This document shows, piece by piece, positions 1,701-58,323 of a stretch of DNA of 64,000 nt. The notes under the pieces are model-generated. The model saw only the letters and a program-made list of their open reading frames with translations. It had not been told where the DNA came from and searched no databases. The position numbers were made by a program, and so were the translations under genes. Location of the stretch: positions 1 to 64,000 of the forward strand of contig SISS01000024.1 of assembly GCA_004332335.1 (NCBI GenBank). The letters are read 5' to 3'. This DNA comes from Methanoregulaceae archaeon UXB-2016 (GTDB taxonomy: Archaea; Halobacteriota; Methanomicrobia; Methanomicrobiales; Methanospirillaceae). The number at the start of each line of letters is the position of its first letter. Position 1 is the first letter of the stretch.

Positions 1701-2927
1701 TTACGTCCCGACGTCCCAGGCCGACATGTACCGGGCCTGCTCATCGGTCAGGGAGTCGATCGCGATCCCCAGTGAGGCCAGCTTCTCGCATGCGACCGTC
1801 TCGTCGATCGCTGCCGGGACCTCGTAGACCCCGCCCGTGAGCTCGCGTCCGTGCTTCGCGATGTACTCGGCCGAGAGGGCCTGGAGCGCGAACGAGAGGT
1901 CCATCACCTCGATCGGATGGCCCATTCCCTTCGGTGTCGCGAGGTTGACGAGCCGCCCTTCGGCAAGGACGTGGACCCGCCGGTCCCCGAGGACAAAGGT
2001 CTCGATCCCGTCGCGCTGCTCGACCGCATCGGCGATCTTATGGAGTCGCTCGAGGTCGATCTCGACGTTGAAGTGCCCGGCGTTCGAGAGGATCGCGCCG
2101 TCCTTCAGGAGTCCGAACTGGCGCTCGCCGATCACGTGCGCGTTTCCGGTGGTGGTGACGAAGAGGTCGCCGATCCGGGCTGCCTCGTCCATGGGCAGCA
2201 CGTCGAAGCCATCCATGTGGGCCTCGAGGGCCCGCCGCGGGTCGACCTCGGTCACGCAGACCCGTGCGCCCATCCCGTGGGCCTTGCGCGCAAGTCCTCG
2301 GCCGCAGTAGCCGTAACCGGCCACGACCAGCCTTTTACCCGCGATCAGCACGTTCGTCGTGATCATCAGCGAGGCGAGAGCCGACTCGCCCGTGCCGTGG
2401 ACGTTGTCGAACGATCGCTTCATGGGCGTGTCGTTCACGGCGATCACGGGAAACTCGAGTTTTCCCTCGGCCGCCATCGCCCTGAGCCGGTGGATCCCGG
2501 TCGTGGTCTCCTCGCACCCGCCGATCACGCCGGACAGGAGCTCGCGCCGGGCTGTGTGGAGCCGGTGGATCAGGTCCATGCCGTCGTCGATCGTGACCGT
2601 CGGCCGGGCGTCGAGCACCCGATCGATCGCCGCGTAATACTCCTCGACCGAGCAGGCATGGCGGGCATAACACCGGATTCCGTCCATCGCGTCGAGCGCG
2701 AGGGCAACATCATCCTGGGTCGAGAGCGGGTTGCATCCCGTGATCTCGACCTCGGCCCCGCCGGCCGCGAGCGTCCGGACGAGGTTCGCGGTCTTGGCCT
2801 CAACGTGCAGGGCCATCGCGATCCGCTGCCCTTCGAGCGGCCGATCCGCCGTAAAGCGCCGTTCGATTGCCCGCAGTACGGGCATGTACTGCGCGGCCCA
2901 GGTGATCTTCCGCATCCCCGAATCCAT
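1701..2927 (-). CDS. ahcY: S-adenosylhomocysteine hydrolase (possibly S-inosylhomocysteine hydrolase)
   Basis: Cleaves S-adenosylhomocysteine, the product of SAM-dependent methylation, to homocysteine and adenosine using tightly bound NAD. The 408-residue length fits archaeal AHCY. Seen: the Rossmann motif GYGYCGRG, a glutamate-containing YGYCG region, NDTPMKRSFDN with a substrate-binding lysine, an SNAGHFNVEID block and the C-terminal HPIEVMDLSF segment. In some methanogens the orthologue prefers S-inosylhomocysteine after deamination of SAH (known for Methanocaldococcus); sequence alone cannot tell which applies here. The start at 2927 is the first ATG; MRKITW four codons later is an alternative. 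A TATA-like ATTAATGTA about 25-35 bases upstream suggests a leaderless or near-leaderless transcript. The gene is divergent from hisF. Confidence 0.93.
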   Translation of the reverse strand: MDSGMRKITWAAQYMPVLRAIERRFTADRPLEGQRIAMALHVEAKTANLVRTLAAGGAEVEITGCNPLSTQDDVALALDAMDGIRCYARHACSVEEYYAAIDRVLDARPTVTIDDGMDLIHRLHTARRELLSGVIGGCEETTTGIHRLRAMAAEGKLEFPVIAVNDTPMKRSFDNVHGTGESALASLMITTNVLIAGKRLVVAGYGYCGRGLARKAHGMGARVCVTEVDPRRALEAHMDGFDVLPMDEAARIGDLFVTTTGNAHVIGERQFGLLKDGAILSNAGHFNVEIDLERLHKIADAVEQRDGIETFVLGDRRVHVLAEGRLVNLATPKGMGHPIEVMDLSFALQALSAEYIAKHGRELTGGVYEVPAAIDETVACEKLASLGIAIDSLTDEQARYMSAWDVGT

Positions 2928-2999
2928 GTCCCTAGTGGTGGGCGGCGGGATACATTAATCCATAACTCTCAATAGGGGCGCCGTCGATCGGTACACACG
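2928..2999. promoter_or_regulatory. Divergent ahcY / hisF promoter region
   Basis: Only 72 bases separate the two start codons. The one AT-rich stretch (about 2951-2976) holds ATTAATGTA on the minus strand, 24-35 bases before ahcY, and AACTCTCAATAGG on the plus strand, 24-35 bases before hisF. Both spacings suit archaeal TATA boxes driving near-leaderless mRNAs. The assignment rests on spacing and composition only. Confidence 0.45.
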
Positions 3000-3806
3000 A
3001 TGGTGCTGACCAGGCGGATCATCCCCTGCCTCGACATCAAGGACGGGCGGGTCGTCAAGGGCACGAACTTCCTCGGGCTCCGAGACGCCGGCGATCCGGT
3101 GGAGCTCGCAGCCCGGTACAACGAGCAGGGGGCCGACGAGGTGGTCTTTCTCGACATCACGGCCTCGAAGGAAGGGCGGGGGACGATGGTGGAGGTGATC
3201 CGCCGGGCCGCCGACGAGCTCTTTCTCCCGCTCACGGTCGGGGGCGGGATCCGGACGCCCGAGGACATCCGGCAGATCCTCCGCGCCGGGGCGGACAAGG
3301 TCAGCATGAATACGAGCGCGGTTGAGAGGCCGGCCCTGATCACCGAGGGTGCGAACGCGTTCGGGACGCAGTGTATCGTTGTTGCGGCCGATGTCCGCCG
3401 TAACTTCGAAACGAACCCGGACGGAACTCCGGTCGTCCTCGCCGACGGACGGACATGCTGGTACGAGGTCGTGACCTACGGCGGACGTCGTCCGACCGGG
3501 CTCGATGCGATCGCCTGGGTCCGCGAGGCCGAGAGCCGTGGCGCGGGCGAGGTGCTGCTCACGAGCATGGAGACCGACGGCACCAAGGACGGCTTCGATC
3601 TCGCGATCACCTCCGCCGTCTCCGAGGCAGTCGGAATCCCGGTGATCGCGAGTGGGGGCGTCGGCCGACTCGAACACTTCTACGACGGTTTTGTGGCCGG
3701 GAAGGTCGACGCGGCCCTCGCGGCCTCGGTCTTCCACTACGGGGAGCTGACCGTTCGGGATGTAAAAGAGTACCTGGCCGGGCGGGGTGTCCCGGTTCGG
3801 CCCTGA
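3000..3806 (+). CDS. hisF: Imidazole glycerol phosphate synthase cyclase subunit HisF
   Basis: Cyclase subunit of histidine biosynthesis: with ammonia from HisH it converts PRFAR to imidazole glycerol phosphate and AICAR. It has 268 residues, the usual length. Seen: the (beta/alpha)8 signature [17 protein letters not shown] with catalytic Asp12, the phosphate-binding VGGGIR loop, the second catalytic Asp in VVAADVRR, and the C-terminal phosphate loop VIASGGVG. Other his genes are not nearby. The gene is convergent with pheT, with a single base between the two stop codons, so its terminator must lie inside pheT. ATG 3000 is the only sensible start, because the conserved N-terminus begins there. 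Confidence 0.97.
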
Positions 3807-5425: not shown

Positions 5426-6892
5426 CTAGCGCCCTCCCCCGCCTCGGCGGATGGGAGTTTCGCGGCACCAGTCGATGTCCGAGCGGTAGAGCTGGCGCAG
5501 GTCCTTGAGACCAAGGCGGAGCATTGCGAGGCGCGAGGCCCCGAGACCCCAGGCGAGGACCGGATGCTCGAGGCCGAGCGGCGCCGTCACCTCCTCGCGG
5601 AAGACCCCGGCTCCGCCGAGCTCGACCCATCCGAGCCCCTCGACGAATACCTCGGGCTCGACCGAGGGCTCGGTGTAGGGGAAATAGCCAGGGCGGAACC
5701 TGACCTGCGGAAACCCGAGGCGGCGGTAGAACTCGCGGAGGAAGCCGAGCAGGTGCGAGAAGGTGACCCCTTCGTCCATCACGATCCCCTCGAGCTGCTC
5801 GAACTCAGGCAGGTGCGTCGGGTCGATCGCTTCACGACGGAAGACCCGGCCGATCGCGAAGGCTTTGACCGGCGGGTTCGGATGGGCCGCCAGATGCTGG
5901 ATCGAGAGCGCGGTCGCGTGGGTGCGGAGCACCTGCTGACGGGCCTTCGCCTCCTGCCAGGTGCCGCCCCAGCCGGTCGAGGTGGTCTCACCGCCGTGCT
6001 CGTGCATGGCCCGGACCCGTTCCCAGCCCTCCGGAAGATCGGCCTCGCCACCGAGGTGGAAGGTGTCCTGCATCTCTCGGGCGGGGTGGTCCTGGGGCTG
6101 GAAGAGCGCATCGAAGTTCCAGAAGCCCGACTGGACCAGGCCTCCACCCATCTCGATAAAGCCCATATCGAGGAGAATCTGACGCATCTCGTCGAGGAGC
6201 CGCTGGTACGGGTGCACTTTCCCGGGCACGAGCCGCCGGGGAAGTCGGTCGACCCGGTACTGCCTGAGCAGGGCGTCGCGCCAACTCCCGGTGAGAAGCA
6301 TCTCGTGCGTGAGCTGCCCGAGCTCCTCGCGGAGATCGAGACCGGCCTCGACTAACGCCCGGCCTGCAGGCATGATCGCGATCCGATACCCGACCGACTC
6401 GCGCTCGACGGCGAGCCCGCGCTTGAGGAGTTCGCGAAGGCCGGGGCCGTCGACGAGGGTATCGACGGCGAGCGCCCGTTCGTCTTCGCCCGCTGGGGCC
6501 TCGCCGGCCTTCTCGACCACGCCGTCGCGGATGGCGATCCATCCCTTCCGCCGGAGCCATCCGATCCCGATCGAGGCGAGCGGGTGACTCTTCAGCTCGG
6601 TCATCGAGGCCCTATCGCCGAACGAGGCGAGGAGCTGCCGCTCGGGCAGGCCATCGGCGGCATAGCGCCGTCCCTCGTCGGTCAGGGCGTACGAGGTCTC
6701 GACCTTCCGCTCGACCGCGGCGAGTCCGCCGTTCTGGGCGAGCAGGCTCGCGTACTGGACGACCGCATCGGGCGTCGCGCCGAGGGCGCATCCGAGCGCG
6801 GCCGCACCGGCTTGTCCGAGCGGAGCGAGCGCGGCGAGCAGGCGCCGTTCGTTCAGCGAGAGCGCCTGCGCCTCCCGGTCCGTTCTCTCCAT
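5426..6892 (-). CDS. pheS: Phenylalanyl-tRNA synthetase alpha subunit
   Basis: Catalytic subunit of PheRS (488 residues from ATG 6892). Seen: an N-terminal winged-helix-like tRNA-contact region ([12 protein letters not shown] onward), class II motif 1 near [17 protein letters not shown], the [13 protein letters not shown] segment typical of PheS, motif 2 around [20 protein letters not shown], and motif 3 with [15 protein letters not shown] prefer ATG 6892 because GGAG lies 8 bases upstream and the family N-terminus starts here. The in-frame ATG at 6976 touches the trpS stop, has GAGGT upstream, and would add 28 low-complexity residues encoded partly by a GA repeat. It is translationally linked to pheT. 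Confidence 0.95.
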
Positions 6893-6976
6893 CGTGTCCG
6901 CTCCATTGCTGGCGTCCCCCAGGGGGATGCCGTCCGCCCCGGGGGATCGGCCGGGCTCCGTCTCTCTCTCTCTCAT

Positions 6977-8239
6977 TCAGACCTCTGCTGCCAGGTGCTC
7001 GACCTCGTCCATCCGCTCGCGGAAGTCGGCGAGGAAGGCGAGCACACGCTCGGCCGTCGCCTGCTTGCAGGCCCCGCAGGTCGTCTCGCCTGCAAGGCAG
7101 CGCCTGCGAATCTCTGCGAGCTCAACATCATCGTCGCACATGTGAAACCGGTTCAGCTCAAAGAGGGTGCACCGGTCGGGCTCTCCCCCGAGCCGCTGCT
7201 GCTCCTCGAGCGTGATCCGTCCGCCGGTCACGGCCCTCATCACTTTCTTCCTCACTGCGGCCGCCGGCTCGGTAAAGCCGAACGAGGAGTCGGGGACAGA
7301 GGACGACATCTTGCCTCCGACGAGACCGGGCATGAAGGTATGGTACGTCGCCGAGGGAGGGTGAAACCCGAAGCCGCCGAGCTCGCGTTCGACCCCCCGG
7401 ACGACCTCGCTCACGAGCTCGCACGGCATCCCCCGGACATCGACGTGCCCCTCGTACGCCTTCGATCCCGGGAGTGCCTTCGCGACCGCCCTGACGCCTC
7501 CTTCGGGGGCGTTCTTCGCCCGCACCGAGACATGGTCGCCCCTGTCCTCGACCAGGAAGAAGCGCAGGCTATTGGCCACGTCCCGCGTCAGGCGGATGTG
7601 CGGGTCCTGGTCGAGCCCTACTGGCACGATCGTCGGGGCCGGTTCCCCCGCGACCTGGGGATAGAGGATGTCCGCGACCTGCGTGATCACGCTCATCGCG
7701 TGGGCGAGGGTCGTCTCGGTCGCGAAGCCGTAGATCGCCTGGAGTGCCGAGAAGTTGACCCTCGTCGCCGCCTCGAACGCGAGGTCTTTGAGCGCGTTGT
7801 TGTGCGATTGGAAGTAGGCCTCGCCTCGGTACCCGAGCGCAAAGAGTGCGGTTAGGTATTCGCGCCCGTAGCGATCGCAGTCCTCCCACGAGAGGCCACG
7901 GACCGCGTGCGCCTCGCGATCGGCGATCGTGATCATGCCCTGCCCACCCTGCTCGACATGCCAGACCACCTCCCGCATCACGAGCAGATGGCCCAGGTGC
8001 GGGTGCCCCGAGGGCATGAACCCGGTCAGGACATGGAACGGGCGGCGATCACGGATCGCCAGGGCGATCGGGCGGTAGTCCCGGTGTCCGACGATGATTC
8101 CCCGGCGCATGAACGCGGGCACCTCGGGGAGCAGGTCGAGCAGGGGACCGATCGGCTCGATCCCGAAGTCGTCGAAGAGTCGTCTCGTGTCAATCGCCTG
8201 GCCGCTGGACCAGGGGTTGAGTGCTTCCGGCATGATCAT
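6977..8239 (-). CDS. trpS: Tryptophanyl-tRNA synthetase
   Basis: Class I synthetase charging tRNA-Trp, 420 residues, of the archaeal/eukaryotic type. Seen: the HIGH-equivalent GHPHLGH preceded by FMPS, the LDQDPHIRLTRDVA substrate-pocket block, and the KMSSS ATP-binding loop in GGKMSSSVPDSS. A C-terminal CGACKQATAERV segment with two cysteines resembles that of other methanogen TrpRS. The start at 8239 lies 1 base before the end of endA (stop at 8241-8243); a second ATG at 8233 is possible. The cluster with endA and pheST forms a tRNA-centred operon. Confidence 0.95.
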   Translation of the reverse strand: MIMPEALNPWSSGQAIDTRRLFDDFGIEPIGPLLDLLPEVPAFMRRGIIVGHRDYRPIALAIRDRRPFHVLTGFMPSGHPHLGHLLVMREVVWHVEQGGQGMITIADREAHAVRGLSWEDCDRYGREYLTALFALGYRGEAYFQSHNNALKDLAFEAATRVNFSALQAIYGFATETTLAHAMSVITQVADILYPQVAGEPAPTIVPVGLDQDPHIRLTRDVANSLRFFLVEDRGDHVSVRAKNAPEGGVRAVAKALPGSKAYEGHVDVRGMPCELVSEVVRGVERELGGFGFHPPSATYHTFMPGLVGGKMSSSVPDSSFGFTEPAAAVRKKVMRAVTGGRITLEEQQRLGGEPDRCTLFELNRFHMCDDDVELAEIRRRCLAGETTCGACKQATAERVLAFLADFRERMDEVEHLAAEV

Positions 8240-8240
8240 C

Positions 8241-9242
8241 TCACAGCTTGATGCGGGCAAATTCGACGTAGAAGATGCCTTCACTATGTTGGCAGCCGAA
8301 GAGCATCTTCTTTTTCACCGAATGGGCAAGCCGGACCGAGCGGGAGATCACGGACATGGGCAGGCTCGCTCCTCCCGGAAGGGCGTGGACGAGCATCTCC
8401 GAGTGTGTCCGGCCGAGCACGTACACCCGGTAATGGTGGCCGAACTTGTACCCCGTCCGGGGAACATATCCCCGGTCGCGGAGATGGGCGTAGACCGCGG
8501 TCTTCTCGGGAGCCTCGGCATCGATCGTGTTGACCTCGGTGCGGTAATCCTCGACGGACCCGCCGCCCTCCTCGAGAGAGAGCCGTCCGCCCTCGAGGAG
8601 ATAGAGCGCCTCGACCGGGGCGAGCTTGAGCCGCCGGTCATCGAGCCGGGTTCCGAAACCGGCCTGTTCGAGACCCGAACCGGTTCCGTCGCCCGCAATG
8701 ATCGCCCAGCCGTATCGACGTGCCTGGGCCTCGCCCTCGAGCGGGATCGGTTCCCGTTCGGCGAGGATCGGAAGCTTGACCTCGTAGTAGGTCAGCTCGT
8801 CCTCGTCGTCGACGACCGCGAGCAGGTGCGACTTGCGCATGTTTGCGGTCGAGGTTGCCTCGGCCACCAGCCGGTCGAACTCGATCGGATCCCGCTCGGA
8901 GAGGACCCGGACCATGTACTGCGACTGGCCCGAGCCCGGTTTCTGGCCGCGCCGGAAGACGCGGAAGTCGTGCGGCCCGGTCTGGACCACGTATCCGCGC
9001 TCCCTGAGATCGCGGTACACCAGATAAGTCCGCAGGAAGTGTCCGTCCGCAGAGAATCGCTCGAGCAGGCTCTCAAACGATTGATCGGGGAGCATGATCC
9101 TGCCCCGGTGGACCAGGTAGAGCGCCTCCACCGGCGAGAGCGAGAGCCCGTCCCGCCCGGGCCGGCCGTATCCGCTCTGCTCGTAGAGCTGTAATCCATC
9201 CCGGCCGATCCGGACTCCCCCTTCGTCAAACCTCCCCTTCAC
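8241..9242 (-). CDS. endA: tRNA-splicing endonuclease, two-domain homodimeric type
   Basis: Cuts bulge-helix-bulge introns out of precursor tRNAs. At 333 residues it has two tandem EndA-like halves, as in the known Archaeoglobus-type alpha2 enzymes. Both halves repeat an N-terminal YE(Q)xGYG / LxxAGFGTR block followed by SPVEALYL / APVEALYL. The second half carries the catalytic triad candidates: Tyr in GYKFGHHYRVY, His in SEMLVHALP and Lys in AHSVKKKMLF. The first half has lost them (for example DFRVFRRGQK) and is presumably structural. The start is GTG 9242; a TATA box 25-33 bases upstream leaves almost no leader. It is the first gene of the operon. Confidence 0.95.
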   Translation of the reverse strand: MKGRFDEGGVRIGRDGLQLYEQSGYGRPGRDGLSLSPVEALYLVHRGRIMLPDQSFESLLERFSADGHFLRTYLVYRDLRERGYVVQTGPHDFRVFRRGQKPGSGQSQYMVRVLSERDPIEFDRLVAEATSTANMRKSHLLAVVDDEDELTYYEVKLPILAEREPIPLEGEAQARRYGWAIIAGDGTGSGLEQAGFGTRLDDRRLKLAPVEALYLLEGGRLSLEEGGGSVEDYRTEVNTIDAEAPEKTAVYAHLRDRGYVPRTGYKFGHHYRVYVLGRTHSEMLVHALPGGASLPMSVISRSVRLAHSVKKKMLFGCQHSEGIFYVEFARIKL

Positions 9243-9391: not shown

Positions 9392-10177
9392 CTACTGAGA
9401 GAAGAGGCGGCGCTCGGTCGAGCTCATCACGTGAATTACGACGAGGGCTGCGATCACCTCGTCCGTATTGTCCTTGAGGGGCCGCGCCACAAGGGTGATA
9501 TATCGTTTCTTCTGGTCGTTCGTGACCATCGCGAGGTTGTTCTCGATCCCGATCACCATCGACTCTTTGACCACCTCTATGATCGGGTCAGCGAGCTGTT
9601 GACCGGTGCGCACGTCGATCAGGTAGAAGAGGCGGTTGATCGAATGCATGATGGCCGAACGATACGGGACGTTCACGAGCTGTTCGGCGTAGGGATTCAT
9701 GAAGAAGATCCGGCCGTTCATGTCCGTCAGGATCACCGCATCGAGCATCGTGACGATGCTCTTGAGGTTCGTCTCTTTGGACTTGAGCAACCGGCGCATC
9801 ATGGCCGAGTTGTAGAGCGCAATCTCGACCGAGGAGTAGATGTCCTTGTCGTTGAAGGGCTTCGTGATGAACCCGAGCGGCTCGGCCACCTTTGCCCGTT
9901 CAATCGTCTCGTCATCGTAGTGGCCGGTCAGAAAGATGACGGGGATGTTGAAGACCCCACTGATGTATCGGGCCGCGTAAATGCCGTCGATCGCGCCCTT
10001 CAGACCGATGTCCATCAGCACGAGATCTGGCTGAACCTCGGCCGCCCGACGGATCGCATCCTCCCCCGTCGGTACCTTTCCCACAACGACATAGTCCTTC
10101 TTCTGCAGGATCCGCTCGATCAGGCTCGCGATGATCTCGTCGTCCTCCACGACCAGTATCTTTTTGAGCGCTGCCAT
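9392..10177 (-). CDS. Response regulator with receiver and PAS-like domains
   Basis: Two-component receiver protein of 261 residues with no DNA-binding domain. Seen: receiver domain at residues 5-120 with the acidic pair Asp12/Asp13, phosphoacceptor Asp56 (VLMDIG), Thr84 and Lys106 (FITKPF). A short linker is followed by a PAS-like sensor domain (about 135-255, starting TMLDAVILTDMNGRIFFMNP). ATG 10177 (MAALKKILVV) is chosen because the receiver fold begins there; an upstream in-frame start would run far into the intergenic region. It is divergent from a histidine-kinase-like gene at 10293, a likely partner. RR-PAS proteins of this kind are frequent in Methanomicrobiales; output is unknown. 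Confidence 0.87.
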   Translation of the reverse strand: MAALKKILVVEDDEIIASLIERILQKKDYVVVGKVPTGEDAIRRAAEVQPDLVLMDIGLKGAIDGIYAARYISGVFNIPVIFLTGHYDDETIERAKVAEPLGFITKPFNDKDIYSSVEIALYNSAMMRRLLKSKETNLKSIVTMLDAVILTDMNGRIFFMNPYAEQLVNVPYRSAIMHSINRLFYLIDVRTGQQLADPIIEVVKESMVIGIENNLAMVTNDQKKRYITLVARPLKDNTDEVIAALVVIHVMSSTERRLFSQ

Positions 10178-10292
10178 AGGGATGCCGCACCGGAAGTCGG
10201 TGACACAGATATCGGGGTTGCGCTCAGATAATCCTTTTCTATTCCCCGTTGGCCGAAAGGCTTGTCTGGAAGGCGGCCAATCTATCGGCACG

Positions 10293-11345
10293 ATGACCCG
10301 CATTGACGGGGTGCTGTCTACCTGGCTCGAGCTGATCGACCGCCTCCCTGTTCCGGCCTACGCGCTCGACATCAAGGGCACGGTTGTCGTCTGGAACATG
10401 CCCCTCTCACGCCTGTCGGGCATCAACGGGGCGGAGGTGATCGGACGAGCCGGAGGCGCTCACGCGGTCCCGTTCATCGGGACGGCGGGCGCGATGATCG
10501 CGGACCTTGTTCTCGATCCGTCCCGCCCGACTCCGGATCATCTCACTGGTCTCGAGGGGAACGGAGATCGCAGGACGGCCAGGCTCTCGGCCCACGCTCT
10601 TAAAGCGGGGCGGAGGGTGACTGTGATGGCCGCTCCGGTCACTGTCGGCGGTGAACGGGTCGGCGTCGTCGAGATCGTGATCGACCCGGAGTCCCTCGAC
10701 CCACGCATCGGAGAATCTCGCGAGATCATCGACCTCCTACTGAGCACCGTCCGCCACGACATCCTGAATGATCTGACGATCGTGCTCGGGTACATCGAGC
10801 TTGCTCGCGATGCGATCCCGGACCCCGCTGCGAATGCGGACCTGAACCGGGCCGTGGCCGCGGCCGACGCGATCCGTGGTCGGATCGAGTTCACACGGGA
10901 GTTCCAGAGGATCGGATCGCGATCACCGGTCGACCGCATACTCGCGGTCCTGGTCCGCGACGCAGCCGACCGAGTCGATCTGGATGGAATACGCCTGGAG
11001 TGCGCGATCCCCGAGCTTCTTGTGCGGGCCGACCCTCTTCTCCCGCGAGTCCTCGAGCACCTCCTCCGACTCTCGTCCTCCTCGGCCCCCCGTCCGACCG
11101 CGATCCGGATAGAGGCCACGGGTACGGATCCCCTGGTTCTCCGGTACGGCGATGACGGCGGTGGCGGGTGCTGGATGCCGCAGGCGGACGGTTCTCCGCC
11201 GCGAGAGCTGGGCCCGATGCTCCTGCTGATGCGGGACGTGCTCGCGCTCGACGAAATCGAACTCCTATTCAGGGACGATCTCCGGTGGCCGATCGAGCTC
11301 CGGATTCCCGGCTCTCTGCTCCGGCCGGTGAAAAAAGAGGGGTAG
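10293..11345 (+). CDS. PAS domain histidine-kinase-like protein with degenerate ATPase domain
   Basis: Sensor protein of 350 residues. Seen: a PAS domain at about 8-130 (LIDRLPVPAYALDIKGTVVVWN), a dimerisation/phosphoacceptor helix with the H-box VRHDILNDLTIVLGYIEL, then a C-terminal region in the position of the HATPase domain. In that region the usual N-box asparagine is not visible (VLEHLLRLSSSS), the G1 box reads DDGGGG instead of DxGxG, and no G2 GxG loop is apparent. It may therefore be a pseudokinase or accept phosphate from another kinase (inference). It is soluble, with no membrane segment. Start ATG 10293. It is divergent from the response regulator and convergent with fdhB, with 2 bases between. 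Confidence 0.8.
   Translation: MTRIDGVLSTWLELIDRLPVPAYALDIKGTVVVWNMPLSRLSGINGAEVIGRAGGAHAVPFIGTAGAMIADLVLDPSRPTPDHLTGLEGNGDRRTARLSAHALKAGRRVTVMAAPVTVGGERVGVVEIVIDPESLDPRIGESREIIDLLLSTVRHDILNDLTIVLGYIELARDAIPDPAANADLNRAVAAADAIRGRIEFTREFQRIGSRSPVDRILAVLVRDAADRVDLDGIRLECAIPELLVRADPLLPRVLEHLLRLSSSSAPRPTAIRIEATGTDPLVLRYGDDGGGGCWMPQADGSPPRELGPMLLLMRDVLALDEIELLFRDDLRWPIELRIPGSLLRPVKKEG
11331..11336 (-). terminator. Oligo-T terminator of fdhAB inside the convergent gene
   Basis: Reading the minus strand, a TTTTTT tract lies 12 bases past the fdhB stop. On the plus strand the same bases are the Lys347-Lys348 codons (AAA AAA) of the kinase-like protein. Archaeal RNA polymerase terminates at oligo-T tracts, so this is the best terminator candidate for fdhAB. 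Confidence 0.5.
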
Positions 11346-38716: not shown

Positions 38717-39697
38717 CTATCCTGTCAGCAGGCGGAGGGCCCGGACCACGCCCTCTGTCGACGGGCGGGGAGGTGTCAGGTGCGGAAGAGGAGCATCCCC
38801 AAGCAGGTCCTCGAAGATCGCATGCACCGCCTCCCCCTGCGATGGGCCGTATCCCCCTTCGAGGACGAGCGCGATCGGCCTGTCCAGGATCCCGGCAGCA
38901 GCCCCGGTCAGCACGCCGTAGTCCCCCGGCACGAGGGCCATGCCCGCCTTCGGGTCGTCGGCCAGCCCGTCCTGACCCGCCGAGACGATCAGCAGGTCGG
39001 GGTCGAAGTCCATGATCGCAGGGGCGAAGGCCTCGGAGATCACGTATGCGAGGTCGGCAAGGGTTGCGCCCGAGCCGAGGGGCGCGTTCAGAGTGAAGCC
39101 CCGCCCCTCTCCTTCACCGATCTCGTCGACCCAGCCGCTCCCCGGAAAGGCCCCCTGCTGGTGGACGGAGCAGAAGAGTACCCGGTCCGATGCGTAGAAG
39201 ATCTCCTGGGTGCCATTGCCGTGATGGAGGTCCCAGTCGAGGATGGCGATCCGGTCGGCCCCGTCATCGAGCAGGCTTGCGGCCGCCACGGCCGCGTTGT
39301 TGAAGATGCAGTAGCCCATGGCCCGGTTCCGCGTCGCATGGTGCCCCGGCGGACGGACGAGCGCAAAGGAGTGCTCCCCTGCACATGCCCGCCGTGCCGC
39401 CTCGATCGCCGAGCCGGCCGCATAGGCTGCGGTTTCGTAACTGCCGGGCGCAAGGTAGGTGTCCGGGGTCAGAAACGCGACCTCGGCCCCCGAGGCCGAG
39501 AGGCCGGCGATCCGGTCGACGTACTCCTCGTCGTGGACGCGCAGGAGATCGGCGACGGTTGCCCGGACCGGCGGGCGGCGCAGCACCCCTGTCGGGATGC
39601 GACGGTCGATCAGCTCGAGCCGTTCGCGGGACTCGGTATGGGCCGCGAGGTGATGGCACGAGAAGATCGGACCCGTGATCGCGGAGACCTTCGGCAC
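38717..39697 (-). CDS. Histone deacetylase superfamily protein
   Basis: Zinc-dependent deacetylase of the HDAC/acetylpolyamine amidohydrolase/AcuC superfamily, 326 residues. Seen: RPPGHHATRNRAMGYCIFNN with the catalytic His pair, DWDLHHGNGTQ with two zinc ligands, SAGQDGLADDP with the third, and the glycine-rich LEGGYG loop. The substrate may be acetyl-lysine in chromatin proteins, acetylpolyamine or a small metabolite. The start is ATG 39697, 6 bases after the glycosyltransferase stop, so the two may be cotranscribed. Confidence 0.94.
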   Translation of the reverse strand: MPKVSAITGPIFSCHHLAAHTESRERLELIDRRIPTGVLRRPPVRATVADLLRVHDEEYVDRIAGLSASGAEVAFLTPDTYLAPGSYETAAYAAGSAIEAARRACAGEHSFALVRPPGHHATRNRAMGYCIFNNAAVAAASLLDDGADRIAILDWDLHHGNGTQEIFYASDRVLFCSVHQQGAFPGSGWVDEIGEGEGRGFTLNAPLGSGATLADLAYVISEAFAPAIMDFDPDLLIVSAGQDGLADDPKAGMALVPGDYGVLTGAAAGILDRPIALVLEGGYGPSQGEAVHAIFEDLLGDAPLPHLTPPRPSTEGVVRALRLLTG

Positions 39698-42350: not shown

Positions 42351-42360
42351 CCTATTTATG
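42351..42360 (-). promoter_or_regulatory. TATA box of rubredoxin-fprA
   Basis: CATAAATAGG on the minus strand, 20-29 bases before ATG 42331. It overlaps the last codons of the TOPRIM gene, so the oxygen-defence pair has its own promoter inside that gene. Confidence 0.55.
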
Positions 42361-42888
42361 GGTTGTTGCGACCTCGGGCGCATACCGGTGCAGGAAGAAT
42401 CCGAGCGATCGGTTCCGGTCGGCACCGCGTTCGAGCGAGTACGCCTCGAGCAGGTCGAGCATGAACTCGACCCGGGAGATGTACCGGCGTGGAATCAGGG
42501 CGTTGAACTCCTCCTTTGTCAGGCGATCGGTCGAACCGGGCGGAAGACCGCACTCGCGGAGAAATCCGTCGTCGGCCCCGGCCACGTACCAGGACTCGAT
42601 CTCCATGACCACGACCGCGATCCTCCCCGGCTCGGCCCGATCGAAGTGGCGGAGGATCACGCCCTTCTTCGCCCGGACCGAGGGCTCGGCATCGATGTCC
42701 GCGACGATCACGTACTCGTCGCCCAGGCGTTCGATCCCGCGGATCAGACGGTCGACCGCGATCCGTCGGAGCGAGGCGTACGGGATCAGCCGTACCTCGT
42801 CGTATCGGGTCCTGAGAGCGGGAGTCAGAGTCCGCTCGAAGAAACGGACGTCGTCGGAGCCCTCGACAAAGATGTTCAGCCGCGGCAT
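42352..42888 (-). CDS. TOPRIM-like protein (DUF4276/DUF4435-like), partner of AAA ATPase
   Basis: 178-residue predicted nuclease. Seen: a TOPRIM-type layout with Glu9 in [15 protein letters not shown], the DxD pair Asp64/Asp66 in [12 protein letters not shown], and [10 protein letters not shown] at about 95-102, reminiscent of the conserved glutamate/tryptophan segment of DUF4276. These fit Mg-dependent cleavage (inference). The start is ATG 42888, 4 bases after the AAA ATPase stop on the same strand; together they form a two-gene unit like known anti-phage AAA/TOPRIM systems (OLD-related, PARIS). I am unsure of the exact family. Confidence 0.75.
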
Positions 42889-42892
42889 GAGA

Positions 42893-44101
42893 TCAGAGGA
42901 GGTCGGCCAGAAAGAGGTCGTCGAGCCCGACCTCCTCCTCGAGGAAGGTTCGGACCTCGGGCCGGTCCGCCGGCCGGGAGAGGACCGAGAAGCCGGCATC
43001 GTCCCGCGACACGAGACAGACCACGTCGACGGGGGTATGCCGGAGGATGGCCGGATGCTGAGTCGAGACGAGCATGGGCTGATGTGCGGCCGCCTCCAGC
43101 ATCAGCCCGGTGAGCCGTTCGATCACGCCTGGATGGAGCCGTCCCACCGGCTCCTCGAAGAGCGCCAGCTCTCGCGGCGAGAAGAAGAGCGCGACGAGCA
43201 GGGCGAAGAGCTCGACCGTGCCGCTCGAGAGAGCTTCGGCCGGGAGGTAACGGCCGGGTGTATAGACCTCGGCCACGCGGATCTCGGAAGCCTCTCCAGG
43301 GCCGTCGCCGACCACGACGTCATCGATGAACGGGAGGAGGTCGCGGACCAGAGCCAGGAACTGGCGGCGCGACTCGGGGTGCGCGAGGACGCGGCCGAGC
43401 GCAATCGCGGCGTTCGACCCGTCCTCGGCGAGCTCGGCCGCCCCTGTGCGTCTGTCGAGGCGCCCGGAGAGACGGGGGCCGAACTCGTAACAACTGATCA
43501 GGGCGAGCGACCGGCGAACGAGCCCCATTGGGTAGAGCGTGGGCGACTCGAGAAGAAGCGTGTTCGGTGTAGTGGCGCCCTCGCGGAGGGCCGGAGGGAA
43601 GACCGTGTCCTCATCGACGCCGGGCGGCAGTTCGAACAGAAACCGGACCTCACCGCCCTCGTTCACGATCTCCATCGATCCCGGGAAGGCCTCTCCGTTC
43701 GGCGGGGTGAGGGTGAACTGCATGCTGAAGCGGTCCGAACGAATCTCGGGGCGGTCCCCGCACGCGAGTGCGAACGCGTAGGTGCAGGCTCCCGGAGCAA
43801 AGGCAAGCCTCCTGCCGTCCGACAGGGTGCGGAGCGACTCCCCGGTCGGCAGGGTCAGCTCGACGCGGACGGTGAGCTCGCGCCCGCAGGCCAGACCGGC
43901 ATTCTGAAGAAAGGGGAGGCCGCCCTGGAGCGAGATCGCGTTCGCCAGCCCCGACCGAGCGATATCACGAAGGAAGAGGAACCCCTGGATCAGGTTCGTC
44001 TTGCCGGCCGCATTCCGCCCGATCAGGAGCACGAACGGCTGGAGCCGGAGTTCGGCCCGGCGAAAGGAGCGGAAGTTCTCGAGGGAGAGGGCTGTGATCA
44101 C
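42893..44101 (-). CDS. AAA/ABC-like ATPase (AAA_15/AAA_21, RecF/OLD type)
   Basis: 402-residue ATPase of the RecF/SMC-like group. Seen: N-terminal ITALSLENFRSFRRAEL, Walker A GRNAAGKT (28-35), an ABC-type signature EALSSGTVELFALL, an atypical Walker B ELALFEEP (Glu316-Glu317) followed by VGRLHP, and a D-loop/H-switch STQHPAIL. The middle carries an insertion of beta-rich sequence. The start is GTG 44101 with GGTGA four bases before it; the open frame continues upstream into the methyltransferase gene without family-like sequence. It pairs with the TOPRIM gene 4 bases downstream, suggesting a nuclease-ATPase complex. Confidence 0.83.
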   Translation of the reverse strand: MITALSLENFRSFRRAELRLQPFVLLIGRNAAGKTNLIQGFLFLRDIARSGLANAISLQGGLPFLQNAGLACGRELTVRVELTLPTGESLRTLSDGRRLAFAPGACTYAFALACGDRPEIRSDRFSMQFTLTPPNGEAFPGSMEIVNEGGEVRFLFELPPGVDEDTVFPPALREGATTPNTLLLESPTLYPMGLVRRSLALISCYEFGPRLSGRLDRRTGAAELAEDGSNAAIALGRVLAHPESRRQFLALVRDLLPFIDDVVVGDGPGEASEIRVAEVYTPGRYLPAEALSSGTVELFALLVALFFSPRELALFEEPVGRLHPGVIERLTGLMLEAAAHQPMLVSTQHPAILRHTPVDVVCLVSRDDAGFSVLSRPADRPEVRTFLEEEVGLDDLFLADLL

Positions 44102-49518: not shown

Positions 49519-52500
49519 TTGGGAGGACTTGAACTGCTGCGGCGGGATATGGCCCGGATCCGGGACCAGGTAACCGAAGGTGCGGCAACCGGTCCCCACT
49601 GTTCGGATACGCAGCCACTCCGTGCCGAGCTTCTCTCGGCCGATCAGCTCTCGATCCATGCGCGGGAGATGACGGGCTGGTACGGTGTCGACATGCGCGG
49701 CGGCGAGGATCGCCTCCTTCCGCGCCTGGCCGAGAACGAGGTCCTGCTGCTCGAGACCTTCACCCTTATCACGGCGGCCCTCGAGATGAACCGCCGGATC
49801 GCCCCTGCCGGCGAATGGCTTCTCGACAACTTCTACCTGGTCGAGGAGCAGATCCGGACGGCACGCCGCCACCTCCCGCTCGGATACAGCCGTCGCCTGC
49901 CGCGCCTCGAGAACGGCCCCCTCGCCGGCTATCCCCGCGTCTACTTCATCGCCCGCGAGCTGATCGCCCACAACGACGGGCGCGTCGACCTCGAGGTCCT
50001 CAGTGCCTTCGTCAGCGCTTACCAGTCGGTCACGCCGCTGCGGCTCGGCGAACTCTGGGCGATCCCGATCATGCTCCGCCTCGCCCTGATCGAGAACCTG
50101 CGCCGGGTCTCGGCCCAGATCGGAGCGAACAGGGTCGACTCGGACAGTGCCTCGGTCTGGGCTGACCGGATGATCGAGGTCGCTGAACGCGATCCGAAGA
50201 GCATGATCCTGGTCGTGGCCGAGATGGCCCGGTCGGACCCGCCCATGACGAGCGCGTTCGTGGCCGAGCTGGCCCGCCAGCTCAGGGGCCGTTCACCCGT
50301 TCTCACGATCGCCCTGACCTGGATCGAGCAGCGGCTCTCGGAGATGAGCCTGACCATAGAGCAGATGATCCAGCTCGAGACCCGGGCCCAAGCGGCGGAC
50401 CAGGTCTCGATCGGCAACTCGATCACATCGCTCCGGACCCTCGACGGGATCGACTGGCGCGAATTCGTCGAGCGGTTGTCGGTCGTGGAACTGGTGCTCA
50501 GGGAGAACCCGCAGGATCCCTACGCCGCAATGGATTTTGCGACCCGCGACCGGTACAGGCACGTGGTCGAGCGGCTCGCCCGCCACTCGCCCCTCAGCGA
50601 GGAAGAGGTCGCCCGCCGGGCGATGGCGCTCGCGGTCGATCGTCGCATCCGGCTGGGGGGGGCCGATCGATCGGCCCATGTCGGCTACTTTCTGATCGAT
50701 CAGGGCCTCCCAGAACTGGAACGGGCGATCGACCACCAGCCCTCGATCGCCGAGCAGCTCCGACGCATCGGGCGGCAGTCTCCCCTGCCCCTGTACCTCG
50801 GCGGGATCATGTTGGGTTCGGGTCTGCTTACGGCCCTCGGTGCGATTCAGGCCGGCCTCTCGGGCACGTCGCTGCTGGTACTGAGCCTGCTGGTCCCGGT
50901 GTTACTGGTGGCCGCAAGCCAGACCGCAGTCTCGCTCGTGAACTGGGCGTCGATGCTCATGGCCAAGCCCAAGATCCTGCCGCGGCTCGACTTCGATAAC
51001 GGGATCCCGATCGAGTCCCGAACCATCGTCGTGGTGCCGACCGTCATCTCCCGCTTCGATGATGTCGACCGGCTGCTCGAGGGGTTCGAGGTCCGCTACC
51101 TCGGCAACCGCGATCCGCAGCTCTCTTTCGTGCTCCTGACCGACCTGCCGGCAGCCGACAGTGAAGCGATGCCTGAGGACGCGGCTCTTGTCGAGTATGC
51201 CGTGAGCGGGATTGAGGAGCTCAACTCCCGGTACGCGGACGAGGGGCGATCGCCCTTCCTGATGCTGCATCGGCCCCGGCAATGGAACGCCCGGGAAGGG
51301 CGGTTCATGGGATACGAGCGCAAGCGCGGCGCGATCGAGGCGCTGAACAGGCTGCTGATAGAGGGTGACCGGGAAGCCTTTGCCGTGATTGCAGGCGAGC
51401 TCGGCGAACTCGACGGAACCCGATACGTGCTGACGCTTGATGCCGACACCGAGCTGCCGCGCGACGCGGCCCGCCGACTGGTCGGGACCGCTGCCCACCC
51501 CCTCAACCAGCCCGTGGTGGACCCGGTTCTCGGTCGCGTGATCGCCGGGTACGGTGTCTTCCAGCCACGGATCGGGCTCTCGCTGACCGGCTCGGCCCTC
51601 TCGCGGTATGTTCGGATCTTCGGAGGTGAACCGGGGATCGATCCCTATACCCGTGCCGTCTCCGACGTCTACCAGGACCTCTTTCGCGAGGCTTCCTTCA
51701 TCGGCAAGGGCTGCTACGACCTCGCGGCCTTCGGCACGACCCTCGGTGCGCGATTTCCCGAGAACCGGATCCTCTCGCACGATCTGATCGAAGGATCGTA
51801 TGCCCGGACCGCGCTCGTGACCGATGTGGTCCTCTTCGAGGACTATCCGCCCCGGTACCTGACCGACGTCTCCCGCCGTCAACGCTGGACCCGTGGGGAC
51901 TGGCAGATCGGTGCCTGGGCCCTTCCAATCGTCCCCGCTCCCGAGGGCGGCCACCGGGCCAATACGCTATCGATCCTCTCGCGCTGGAAGATCGTCGACA
52001 ATATGCGGCGCAGTCTGGTCGCACCGGCCGAGCTCCTCCTGCTCTTCATGGGATGGCTGCTCCTCCCGAACCCGGTCCTCTGGACCGTCGCGGCCGCAGC
52101 TCTGATCTTTGCACCCCCAATAATCACGTTCCTCTTTCAGGTCCTCCAGAAGCCGCGGGATCAGAGCCTCCTCCTCCACCTCCAGGATGCAGCCCGGTCG
52201 GCACCGCGGTACTTCGTCCAGCCCGTCCTCTCTCTGGTCCTCCTTCCGTTCGAGGCGGCCTTCGGACTCGATGCGATTCTGCGGACGCTCGGTCGGCTCC
52301 TCGTGACCGGCCGGCGACTTCTTGAATGGACCACTTCGCGCGATGCCGGGCGGACCGCCTCCGACCTCCCCGGGCACTATCGGCGGATGTGGCCGGCGGT
52401 TGCAGCGGGGCTCGGGGCAGTTCTGCTGACGGGTTTCATCCGGCCCGAAGCCCTGCCTCCGGCCCTTCCGCTTGTCGGACTCTGGTTCGCCTCTCCGGCC

Positions 52501-55500
52501 GTGGCATGGTACCTCAGCCAGCCCCTTGCCGTCCCTGCCCCTACCCTTGATCCGAAGCAGGTGCAGTTCCTCCGCTCGGTCTCGCGGCGGACCTGGCGGT
52601 TCTTCGAGGTCTTCGTCGGGCCGGAGGAGAACTGGCTTCCGCCCGACAACTACCAGGAATATCCGGTCGAGCGGATCGCGCACCGGACCTCGCCCACCGA
52701 TATCGGTCTCGCCCTCCTCTCGACACTCGCGGCGCTGGACCTCGGGTACCTCTCGCCGGCACAGCTCGTCGAGCGGCTTGAGCACTCCTTTGAGACTTTG
52801 GGCCTGCTCGAGCGGTTCCGGGGTCACCTCTACAACTGGTACGATACGATCACGCTAGACCCGCTTCCCCCGCGCTACGTCTCGACCGTCGACTCGGGGA
52901 ATTTCGTCAGCCACCTGCTCACGCTTCGCGCCGGGCTCGCCGAGCTCGGTGAGGTCCCCCTGCTCTCGCAGGCGGCTCTCGATGGGGTCGTCGACACCGT
53001 CCGGGAGCTCCAGGCTGCAGTCCGGGAGACCGTACGCGACCGTGATGAGCTGACCTTTGTCTCCCCGGTGAACACAGGGCGAATCGACCGCGTAGAAGAA
53101 CTCCTGACCACAGCGGGCCCGTCCTTTGCCGATCGATACGCGGCTCTGGCCCGGTGTGCCGATGAGGTCCTGCAGATCGCCGGGGATCTCAAGACGAACG
53201 CGGACGAGGAGGTCCGCTGGTGGATTGGAGCCCTCGAGCTGCAGGTCCACGGTCTCCGGCAGTACGTCGACGACCTTCTCGGGTGGTGGGCCGTCGCCCC
53301 TCGCGACCAGGCCTTCTGGGATCGGATCGTGGTCGCCGGCCCCGAGGAGGTCGGTAAGGTCGTGGCGGCGCTCGCAGCGTGCGATAGCGAGGCCCCGGGC
53401 CTGGTCGGCCTGCGGCAGCTGGAGGCCGACCTTCTGCCCGCAGTCGATCTGCTTCTGACCCGGATGCTGGCCACCCGGGGTCCCTCCCGTCCCGATCAGG
53501 CGGATTCAGGCACGACGCTGATGGCTCTCCGGGAACGGCTCCACAGTGCCGGAGGCCTGGCAGGGGTGCTGCTCGACCGCCTCGAGCGGCTGGGCGCTCG
53601 AAGCGCCGAGCTCGTGGAGATCGAGACGGCCTTCCTCTTCGACCCGACCCGAGACCTGCTCGCGATCGGCTATAATGTCGCCGAGCTCCGCCGCGACCCC
53701 TCGTTCTACGATCTCCTCGCCTCCGAAGCGCGCCTTGCCTCGTTTATCGGCATCTCGAACGGGGAGCTGCCTCAGGCCCACTGGTTTGCGCTCGGTCGCA
53801 TGCTCACCTCGAGCACGGGCGGCCCGCTCCTTCTCTCCTGGTCGGGGTCGATGTTCGAGTACCTGATGCCGCTCCTCGTCATGCCGAGTTATCCTGAGAC
53901 CCTGCTGGACCAGACTTGCATCGCCGCAGTCCGCCGGCAGATCGAGTACGGGCGGCAGCGGGGAGTGCCGTGGGGTGTCTCAGAGTCCGGGTACAACCTG
54001 ACCGATGCGAACATGAACTACCAGTACCGGGCTTTCGGCGTGCCGGGGCTCGGGTTCAAGCGAGGGCTGGGCGAGGATCTGGTGATCGCTCCGTACGCAA
54101 CCGCGCTCGCGCTCATGGTCCTCCCGACCGAGGCGACGGAAAACCTCGAGGCGATGGCGTCCGCCGGCTTCTACGGGCGGTACGGGTTCTACGAGGCGGT
54201 CGACTACACCCCCTCCCGGGTCTCCCACGGCCAGTCGTTTGCAGTCGTCCGATCGTTCATGGTCCATCACGCGGGGATGTCACTGCTGGCACTCGTTTCG
54301 ATGCTCCTCGACCGGCCCATGCAGCGCCGCTTCCTGGCCGTCCCCGAGATCCGGGCGACCGATCTCCTGCTCCAGGAGCGAGTGCCGAAGGTAACTCCTT
54401 TCTATCCGCACGCGATCCGCCGTGACGGGTTGGTCCGGCGAGGCGCCGAGGGAGAGGCACTGATCCGGGTCTTCACGACCCCCGACACCCCGCGTCCCGA
54501 GGTCCATCTTCTCTCGAACGGGCGGTACCACGTGATGGTTACGAACGCCGGCGCGGGATACTCCCGCTGGCGCGATTTCGAGCTGACCCGCTGGCGCGAG
54601 GACCCGATCGCCGATGAGCACGGCTTCTTCTGTTACGTGCGCGACGTCGAGAGCGGCCGGTTCTGGTCGACCTGCAACCAGCCGTCCCTAGAGCCGGCCG
54701 AGCACTACGAGGCGATCTTCCAGCAGGCCCGGGCCGAGTTCCGCAGGCGCGACGACGAGCTCGATGTCCATACGGACGTCATGGTATCGCCCGAGGATGA
54801 CATCGAGCTCCGCCGGGTCCGGATCACCAATCGTTCGTGGCACCGACGGACGGTGGAGTTGACGAGTTATGCCGAGGTCGTTCTCGCTCCTCAGGGCCAG
54901 GACGTCTCCCACCCCGCCTTCTCGAACCTCTTTGTGACGACCGAGCTCATCCCGGAGCGGAACGCCATCCTGGCCACGCGCCGGCCCCGGTCTTCGAGCG
55001 AGCATCCTCCCTGGCTCGTGCACATGATGGTCGTCGATGGAATAACCGTACGCGCCACTTCGTTCGAGACCGACCGGGCCCGTTTCATCGGGCGCGGCCA
55101 CACGCTCGCGGATCCGGTCGCGATGACCGACTCGTCGGTCCTCTCCGGAACAGCCGGCTCGGTCCTTGATCCGATCATGGCCATGCGCCGCACGGTCTCC
55201 GTCGAGCCCCAGGAGACCGTGACCATCCACCTCTATCTCGGCCTTGGCGAGAATCGGGAACGTGCTCTCGAACTTGTGGAAAAGTACCAGGATGTTCACA
55301 TGGGCGAACGGGTGACCGAACTGGCCTGGACGCACACCCAGGTGATGCTCCGCCAGCTCAACGCGACTGAGGCCGACGCCCAGCTCTTCGCCCGCCTTGC
55401 CTCGGCGATCATCTACCCGAACCCCGCACGCCGTGCCCCCGCAGATATCCTTGTGCGGAACCGGCGGGGCCAGAGCGGGCTCTGGGGATACGGCATCTCG

Positions 55501-58323
55501 GGGGATCATCCGCTCGTGCTCGTCCGTATCGAGAGCACGGCCCGTATCGGGCTGGCCCGACAGATGATCCAGGCCCATGCCTACTGGCTCCGCAAGGGGC
55601 TCGTCGCGGACCTGCTGATCTGGAACGAAGACGTGACCGGCTATCGCCAGAACCTGAACGATGAGATCCTGCGACAGGCGGCTCTCGGCCCGGACCCGCA
55701 TCTGCTGGACCGACCCGGGGGCATCTTCGTCCGCCGGCTCGATCAGATCCCCGAGGAGGACCGCTTCCTCATGCAATCGCTCGCCCGCGTCATCGTGAGC
55801 GACCAGGACGGCTCACTGGCCGAGCAGGTCGAACGAACGCGCTGGACCGAGCCTCAGGTTCCGCAGCTCCTGCCCGCCCGCCCGCAGGCCGCGCCGTCGA
55901 AGGAGACTCCACCAGTCGGAGAGACCCTCGAGTTCTACAACGGCTATGGCGGCTTCTCTCCCGACGGGCGGGAGTATGTGATCGAGAGCCGCCCCGGGCA
56001 GGTCACGCCGGCGCCCTGGGTGAACGTGCTCGCCAACCCGCAGTTCGGCTCGGTCGTCTCGGAGAGCGGCTCGTCCTATACCTGGGCCGAGAATGCCCAC
56101 GAGTTCCGGCTCACCCCCTGGTGGAACGATCCGGTCACGGACCGGACGGGCGAGGCCTTCTACATGCGGGATGAGGAGACCGGGGCGTTCTGGTCGCTCT
56201 CGCCCCTGCCTGCCCGGGGCGAGGGGTCCTACGTGACCCGCCACGGGTTCGGGTATTCGGTCTTCGAGCATGTCGAGGGCGGACTCTCGTCGACCATGAC
56301 CGTCCACGTCGCGGTCGATGCCCCGGTCAAATTCTGGCACGTTCGCGTACGCAACCGCTCGGGCCGCGCCCGTACGGTCACCGTCACCGGGTACCTCGAA
56401 TGGATCCTCGGCGATCTTCGAGCCTCGACGGCGATGCATGTCATGACCGAGATCGACCCCCTTACGGGGGCTCTCTTCGCACGGAACGCCTACAACACCG
56501 AGTTTCCCGCCCGGGTCGCGTTCTTCGACGTGAACGAGTTGAACCGGAGCGTCACGGGCGACCGGCACGAGTTCCTCGGCCGGAATGGGCGTCTGATCCA
56601 TCCGGCGGCCCTCGGCCGGGTCCGCCTCTCCGGAAGGGTGGGAGCGGGTCTCGACCCGTGCGGCGCCCTCCAGGCCGTCCTGGAACTCGCCGACGGCCAG
56701 ACCCTCGACCTGGTCTTCATCCTCGGCGTCGGCCGCGACCTCGACGAGGCGCGTTCGCTCGTGCAGCGGCACCGCGGGCTCGGACAGGCCCGGACCTCGC
56801 TCGACTCGGTCCGTCAGTACTGGGACTGGACACTCTCGGCCGTCACGGTCGAGTCCCCCGACCGGTCGATCGACCTGCTCCTGAACGGCTGGCTCCTCTA
56901 CCAGGTCATTTCGGCCCGGCTCTGGGGCCGATCCGGGTACTATCAGTCCGGCGGCGCCTTCGGCTTCAGGGACCAGCTCCAGGACGTGATGGCGCTGCTT
57001 CATGCCGAGCCGCGTATGATCCGGAAACACCTGCTCGTGGCTGCAGGGCACCAGTTTGTCCAGGGAGATGTTCAGCACTGGTGGCATCCCCCGACCGATC
57101 GGGGGGTGCGGACCCGCTGTTCGGACGACTATCTCTGGCTTCCGTACGTGGCCTGCCGCTACGTCCTCTCCACTCGCGATACGGGGATCCTCTCGGAGCG
57201 CGTTCGGTACCTCGAGGGGCGTCTGCTCATGCCCGATGAGGAGGCTTACTACGACCTCCCGACGATCTCGGATCAGCAGGGGACGCTCTACGAGCACTGC
57301 GTCAGGGCGATCGAGTACGGCCTCCGTTTCGGTGCGCATGGACTGCCTCTGATCGGCTCGGGCGACTGGAATGACGGCATGAACCGGGTCGGCGAGAAGG
57401 GACAGGGCGAGTCCGTCTGGCTCGGTTTCTTCCTCTACACAGTCCTGCTCCAGTTCTCGGGGATCGCGCGGGGACGGGGCGACGATGCCTTCGCCGATCG
57501 GTGCGTGACCGAGGCCGTCCGCCTCTCCACGAACCTGGAGAAGGCCGGCTGGGACGGCGAATGGTACCGCCGGGCCTACTTCGACGACGGGACCCCTCTC
57601 GGCTCGGCTGAGAACGAGGAGTGCCGTATCGACTCGATCGCCCAGTCCTGGGCGGTGCTCTCGGGGGCTGTGGATCAGAATCGGGCGCGCAGGGCAATGG
57701 ACGCCCTCGACAGGTTCCTGGTCCGGCGTGACGATGGTCTGATCGCCCTCCTCACCCCGCCCTTCGACCATGCGGAGCCCTCGCCGGGATATATTCGCGG
57801 GTATGTTCCGGGCGTTCGAGAGAACGGCGGCCAGTACACCCATGCGGCCATCTGGGCTGTCATGGCCTTCGCCGCGCTCGGCGAACCGCATAAGGCCTGG
57901 GAACTCTTCGACCTGATCAACCCGGTCCGGCACGGCCAGACCCGTGCCGAAATCGAGCGGTACCGCGTCGAGCCGTACGTGGTTTCGGCAGACGTCTACG
58001 CCATCCCGCCCCACACCGGGCGGGGCGGGTGGACCTGGTACACGGGGTCGGCAGGCTGGATGTACCAGCTCCTGATCGAGTCGCTGATCGGCCTCCGTTT
58101 CGACGTGGACCTGCTCCGGTTCTCCCCCTGCCTTCCCGCAGGTTGGGAGCGGTTCGTGATCCGCTACCGTTTCCGCGAGACTGTCTATCTGTGCACCATC
58201 CGGGCAACCGGGACGGCGTGCGGTATCCGCTCGGTCAGGGTCGACGGTGTCGAGCAGCCCGATCGCACTGTCCGGCTGGTCAACGATCACCAGCCTCACG
58301 CGGTCGAGGTCGAGATCGGCTGA
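49519..58323 (+). CDS. Cyclic beta-1,2-glucan synthase-like protein (GT84-GH94, NdvB/ChvB type)
   Basis: A 2934-residue membrane enzyme, the size of bacterial Cgs/NdvB (about 2800-2900), predicted to make beta-1,2-linked glucan from UDP-glucose. Domains in order: N-terminal helical region; membrane segments near 422-490; GT-A/GT84 core with catalytic DADTELPRD (Asp641/Asp643) and [10 protein letters not shown] (QRW at 788-790); more membrane segments near 834-875, 898-920 and 957-997; a glycoamylase-like domain from about 1015 ([23 protein letters not shown]) to about 1590 ([13 protein letters not shown] region); two beta-sandwich modules (about 1665 and 2140); and the GH94 phosphorylase-like catalytic domain with [10 protein letters not shown] (2614-2622). 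The start is TTG 49519, with GGAGG nine bases upstream. It stands alone, with no ndvA-type exporter nearby. Confidence 0.93.

Follow-up and report, generated by a model that had tools for sequence, protein, structure and literature searches.

A split OLD-type ATPase and TOPRIM gene pair, inherited essentially vertically and repeatedly lost in Methanomicrobiales

An ATPase and a small TOPRIM protein form a two-gene unit

On the minus strand of the window, by which we mean the whole 64,000-nucleotide stretch of methanogen DNA that was analysed, lie two genes 4 bases apart (42889-42892), the first encoding an ABC-type ATPase and the second a small TOPRIM nuclease-like protein (Table 1). The original prediction had described exactly this arrangement of an ATPase and a 178-residue TOPRIM reading frame, and it was also right in assigning the two to AAA ATPases and TOPRIM nucleases of the OLD kind, as profile, fold and catalytic motifs agree. 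Both genes are carried by all 80 named-genome loci, and they are matched side by side in all 40 methanogen loci fetched, one decayed remnant among them. Of 96 pairs, 92 have an intergenic distance from -11 to +11 nt, the commonest value being -4 (an ATGA overlap). The ATPase and the TOPRIM protein are an obligate two-gene unit, and purifying selection acts on both genes, with dN/dS of about 0.07-0.28 in each (14 species pairs).

Table 1. Features of the gene pair, its immediate neighbours and its remnants in other genomes
Feature	Position	Strand	Remarks
ABC/AAA_21 ATPase, first gene of pair	44101-42893	(-)	402 aa, GTG start
Walker A G28-R-N-A-A-G-K34-T35	43997..44020	(-)	G28, N30, an Ala, G33 and K34 invariant in 24 aligned members
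ABC signature-like S292-x-G294-T295	43217..43228	(-)	Invariant in 24 members
Walker B glutamates E316-E317	43151..43156	(-)	Invariant in 24 members
H-loop position Q348	43058..43060	(-)	His in 91/96 family ATPases, Gln in 5/5 from window's genus
TOPRIM nuclease-like protein, second gene of pair	42888-42352	(-)	178 aa, ATG start
E9, TOPRIM glutamate	42862..42864	(-)	Invariant in intact members; matches role of Bp OLD E400 (PMC6755086)
D64-I-D66, DxD motif	42691..42699	(-)	D64 and D66 invariant
E96-I-E98 in MEIESW, candidate metal-B ligands like Bp OLD T506/E508	42595..42603	(-)	Invariant; equivalence from motif order
Rubredoxin	42331-42155	(-)	Pfam Rubredoxin 2e-22; co-directional, 20 nt past TOPRIM gene
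Flavodiiron F420H2 oxidase (FprA/FpaA-like)	42142-40943	(-)	Pfam ODP 2.5e-24 and weak Flavodoxin_1; co-directional, 12 nt past rubredoxin
Pair remnants	L062 ~10048-11147; L185:7440-7718; L199:930-1028		Conserved rubredoxin-FprA locus

The ATPase matches Pfam AAA_21 (4.6e-19, 70 bits, cut-off 27), and a fold search of its predicted structure (pLDDT 85.8) gave as its closest matches PtuA of Septu, the retron PtuA, and the heads of RecN, SMC and Rad50, with E of about 1e-11. Its Walker A (G28xNxAGK34), signature (S292xGT295) and Walker B (E316-E317) motifs are invariant in 24 of 24 aligned ATPases. The window's genus, in which the H-loop His of the ATPase is replaced by Gln, also sits on a long stem branch of the tree.

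The TOPRIM protein has an OLD-like fold and active site

The AlphaFold2 model of the TOPRIM protein is confident (pLDDT 93.2), and its six best matches in the PDB are all OLD proteins (E 5e-4 to 9e-3, probability 0.97-0.99), at a modest TM-score of about 0.4. Only this fold search gave matches; sequence searches of the PDB with the protein or its profile gave nothing credible. E9, D64 and D66 lie at the positions where the original prediction had placed them, and they are invariant in intact relatives. Their loss in orthologues had been named as something that would count against the assignment; they are kept in all intact orthologues, and one or other is missing in just 1 of 41 loci, the decayed remnant L062. 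Among 25 aligned members the invariant residues are E9, G10, D12, D13, R15, F16, F17, D64, D66, E96, E98, W100, T120, K125, E126, F128, P133, N159 and S161. Since the catalytic residues are invariant across the aligned members, E9, D64 and D66 fail only in a remnant, and dN/dS is low in both genes, the TOPRIM motif is not a chance match. In Bp OLD, metal A is held by E400, D455 and D457 and metal B by E404, T506 and E508, with K562 near the phosphate (PMC6755086). Judged from motif order, E9-x3-D13, D64-x-D66, E96-x-E98 and the later invariant K125 would fit this two-metal plan. The pair thus has the features of the OLD family, namely a TOPRIM fold with invariant Glu and DxD and an ATPase with ABC motifs of the SMC/RecF type.

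Placement among named TOPRIM families is less direct. A Pfam scan of the window's TOPRIM protein gave no match below E 0.1 and none above cut-off. The MEIESW segment (residues 95-100) had been called DUF4276-like, which survives as a lead only: individually tested members score 14.7-21.1 bits against a DUF4276 cut-off of 30.2, and a literature search for the word DUF4276 gave no match. OLD-like_TOPRIM is absent from the window protein's matches, and an individually scanned member reaches 21.5 bits against 23.2; the best E for this profile in the family, 1.9e-4, belongs to another member. Since no individually scanned member reaches the gathering score of DUF4276, DUF4435, DUF3226 or OLD-like_TOPRIM, the protein belongs to a separate TOPRIM group that lies between these families.

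Comparison with known defence systems

The best defence profiles for the ATPase are HEC-01A (1.4e-33), MAD3 (1.6e-23) and AriA (1.1e-18), and within the TOPRIM family they are HEC-01B (6.9e-8), mad4 (2.4e-6) and AriB (8.3e-6). That the closest profiles on both sides are those of defence ATPases and defence TOPRIMs favours a reading in which the pair serves antiviral abortive infection of the PARIS, MADS or HEC-01 kind, with the ATPase sensing an infection signal and freeing the TOPRIM nuclease, and in which it merely has a stable place in Methanomicrobiales. We consider this possible but somewhat doubtful, for reasons of inheritance and neighbourhood given below.

The original prediction had noted a layout recalling PARIS and OLD-derived systems; the OLD kinship is borne out by motifs and fold, and membership of PARIS is not. 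Like PARIS (AriA/AriB; 'Class 4' OLD), the pair has separate ABC ATPase and TOPRIM genes, with the ATPase first, and a putative two-metal TOPRIM effector. Unlike PARIS, its TOPRIM protein has only 178 aa, and it is resident in an archaeal order, whereas PARIS lies in phage and satellite hotspots. In PARIS, AriB is released on a phage trigger and then cleaves tRNA. The detection rule for that system combines an AAA_15 (32 bits) or AAA_21 (27 bits) ATPase with a DUF4435 partner of at least 27 bits (PMC9122126); the ATPase clears this threshold with its 70 bits for AAA_21, but the window's TOPRIM protein has no match to DUF4435 and the best family member reaches 24 bits. The pair resembles MAD3/MAD4 of MADS in its AAA_21 ATPase and related TOPRIM profile, but it scores 83.5 bits against the MAD3 equivalog, for which the cut-off is 420, and no MADS methylase or kinase genes were noticed beside it in the window's list of open reading frames, few of the neighbours having been scanned with Pfam. 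HEC-01, a PADLOC candidate defence system, is the best match in PADLOC for the ATPase and, taken over all its members, for the TOPRIM family; on the window proteins its A and B profiles, shown without curated cut-off, give 1.4e-33 and 0.0031, respectively. HEC-01 is itself a sequence-profile candidate only, and no paper describing it in the defence sense turned up among those searched.

With the OLD nucleases (Class 1/2, and GajA of Gabija) the pair shares the TOPRIM fold, the succession of E, E-x3-D, DxD and later glutamates, and an SMC-like ATPase; it differs in being two proteins instead of one, in having no helicase partner and in its short TOPRIM protein. OLD Classes 1-3 and 5 are single polypeptides, and the intact loci examined all have two genes. 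The UvrD-like GajB of Gabija is not found beside the pair; the adjoining genes encode rubredoxin/FprA and a weakly matching Rsm22-like methyltransferase. Membership of PARIS, MADS and Gabija, and of the archaeal Cran1 group discussed below, was rejected, each failing at least one tested defining feature.

Vertical inheritance within the order and scatter outside it

The pair is present in 98 of 232 Methanomicrobiales genomes (61 of 135 high-quality ones) and in 19 of 40 genera, always as one match per genome, two of the 98 being fragments. For 30 genomes, a tree of the concatenated pair was compared with one of aIF2-gamma. The two agree in 17 of 27 splits, whereas none of 2000 label shuffles gave more than 3, and thus inheritance within Methanomicrobiales is essentially vertical; three conflicts reach 95% support, all of them local. 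The pair tree is about three times as long as that of aIF2-gamma.

Outside Methanomicrobiales the pair is sporadic and horizontally scattered. It occurs in 6 of 53 genomes of another order of the same phylum, mostly in one genome per genus, and a single clade of pairs joins Syntrophales, Planctomycetota, Chloroflexota, Atribacterota, Bacteroidota, Spirochaetota, Thermoplasmatota and others, some of whose contigs may be misbinned. A homologous ATPase-TOPRIM pair also lies on a phage contig (L151, IMGVR_UViG_3300011829_000020) at 6736-8528, together with a single-strand-binding-like gene upstream of it and a terminase-like gene, both named by eye. The phage-borne homologue and the sporadic occurrence in other orders and phyla are what an antiviral role would lead one to expect. 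Against such a role stand the vertical, single-copy inheritance at a conserved locus in Methanomicrobiales and the plasmid and INPHARED phage collections, which gave no match to the window protein or to its phage-borne relative; viral relatives of the L151 pair beyond L151 itself were not found. The defence function put forward in the original prediction fits the family outside the order, where it is horizontally scattered and once phage-borne, and fits it less well within Methanomicrobiales, where it is single-copy, vertical and locus-stable among ordinary neighbours. A mobile element at the window locus was rejected, as the plasmid and INPHARED collections gave no match. In two Syntrophales (L115 and L144) an NAD(P)H-hydrate epimerase-like gene, identified by eye and the same in both, lies a short way from the pair, so locus conservation may extend to bacteria.

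Repeated loss in place

Where the pair is missing, the FprA locus often remains intact, and three genomes, G197 (L062), G135 (L185) and G137 (L199), retain decayed pieces of the pair at their rubredoxin-FprA locus. We take G197 to be Methanosphaerula palustris and G158 to be Methanoregula boonei. Mapped on the FprA tree, presence and absence require at least 8 changes, or about 7 when the absence in G178, which reflects a contig end, is not counted; because the remnants sit at the conserved locus, losses are likelier than gains. This amounts to about seven or more losses in place, of which three left remnants, and the pair is thus not essential. Repeated loss fits a costly module, as an antiviral one might be.

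The original prediction had offered a housekeeping repair pair as its alternative, with universal presence and strict synteny as the signs of one. Synteny is indeed strict within lineages, but presence is far from universal; a universal or essential housekeeping gene was rejected on absence from more than half of the genomes and repeated loss in place. A narrower form of the idea is that the pair maintains the genome, like a RecF-like repair factor or the archaeal OLD protein Cran1 ('Class 5'), which its authors report to be apparently not antiviral and essential for the cell cycle, and to be encoded by a gene that could not be deleted (PMC12796447). Cran1 is vertical in one archaeal order and is reported to co-purify with a histone deacetylase homologue (PMC12796447); the pair is likewise OLD-type and vertical within one order, its ATPase has an SMC/RecN-like fold, and the window has a histone-deacetylase-family gene close to the pair. 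Unlike Cran1, which is one polypeptide, the pair is split and often lost, and the order-wide conservation and essentiality of cran1 contrast with presence in 98 of 232 genomes. Given these losses and a tree length about three times that of aIF2-gamma, we regard genome maintenance as quite improbable.

Linkage to rubredoxin and an F420H2 oxidase

The order pair, rubredoxin, FprA is kept in the window's genus (g1), in g8, in g12 (inferred to be Methanoregula) and in two Methanocalculus genomes. Of 16 window genes, only rubredoxin and FprA, besides the pair itself, lie within about 10 kb of it in g8, g12 and Methanocalculus, so this linkage has outlived the scrambling of the other neighbours. In several loci TspO/MBR lies upstream of the pair and desulfoferrodoxin downstream. 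The neighbourhood comparison across Methanomicrobiales that the original prediction proposed thus finds the rubredoxin-FprA adjacency in several lineages and ordinary neighbours elsewhere: in the Methanolinea-type clade and in families f2, f5 and f6 the pair lies among unrelated ordinary genes and the oxygen link is absent. In the archaeal loci the neighbours are not defence genes, which is a further point against an antiviral role.

Since F420H2 oxidase reduces oxygen in methanogens (PMC3729527), the neighbourhood suggests oxygen stress. An MsvR redox-regulator box at the pair was rejected: the window has 5 MsvR-like boxes where 7.6 are expected, all of them away from the pair, and beside the pair in relatives there is none with 2 or fewer mismatches. 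The adjacency might also be inherited gene order with no functional link, and the pair a slowly eroding relic, as there are several lineages in which the pair, or its adjacency, was lost with no evident effect; with both genes under purifying selection, catalytic residues invariant, and the linkage maintained while other neighbours were scrambled, we find this scarcely credible.

Locus L073 has a tandem second rubredoxin-FprA copy 38-1953 bp downstream of the TOPRIM match, and on L135, a Planctomycetota contig, a distant FprA homologue (35% identity) lies at 2413-3627, about 1.1 kb upstream of the ATPase gene on the same strand.

A defence-type module that may have become resident

Our preferred reading, which we hold tentatively and rate at a little under an even chance, is that a defence-type split OLD module turned resident and acts as a conditional, ATPase-gated nuclease, possibly tied to oxygen stress. 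It builds on what we observe: the architecture, two genes that always occur together, conserved active sites, purifying selection on both genes, vertical inheritance, repeated loss and a conserved linkage. Judged from the two protein families, the biochemistry is likely that of an ATPase-controlled two-metal nuclease: a head-type ABC ATPase would oligomerise and control a small two-metal TOPRIM nuclease whose gene directly follows its own. The parent family would be travelling defence cargo which, in Methanomicrobiales, became a set of resident, vertical and dispensable chromosomal genes, kept in several lineages, the window's included, at the head of a rubredoxin-F420H2 oxidase gene set. The ATPase would hold the TOPRIM protein inactive and release it under cellular stress (oxygen damage, a comparable insult or possibly infection), and the freed protein might then nick DNA or cleave RNA.

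Against a resident stress-responsive module stand the absence of the oxygen link in the Methanolinea-type clade and in f2, f5 and f6, and of an MsvR-like box by the pair; moreover, a stable locus can hold a defence gene too. A more specific version, in which the split OLD module was domesticated into the oxygen-stress response and the ATPase frees the nuclease on oxygen, alongside rubredoxin, F420H2 oxidase and superoxide reductase, we consider unlikely.

The Cran1 paper links the bacterial OLD-type ATPase-nucleases that have been characterised to antiviral defence and presents Cran1, whose role differs, as the first OLD protein characterised from archaea (PMC12796447). The pair would add to the archaeal examples of an OLD-type system passed on vertically, here with the ATPase and the nuclease made as two proteins and with mobile relatives to compare it with. 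Through it, how defence modules turn into resident host genes can be tested in methanogens that grow in culture (Methanoregula, Methanocalculus).

Two further genes of the window may be recorded. A few genes downstream of the pair, 38717-39697 (-) encodes the histone-deacetylase-family protein (Hist_deacetyl 9.7e-79), relatives of which occur in the vicinity of the pair in L031 and of the remnant in L062. A reading frame of 2934 aa at 49519-58323 (+) looks by eye like a cyclic beta-glucan synthase.
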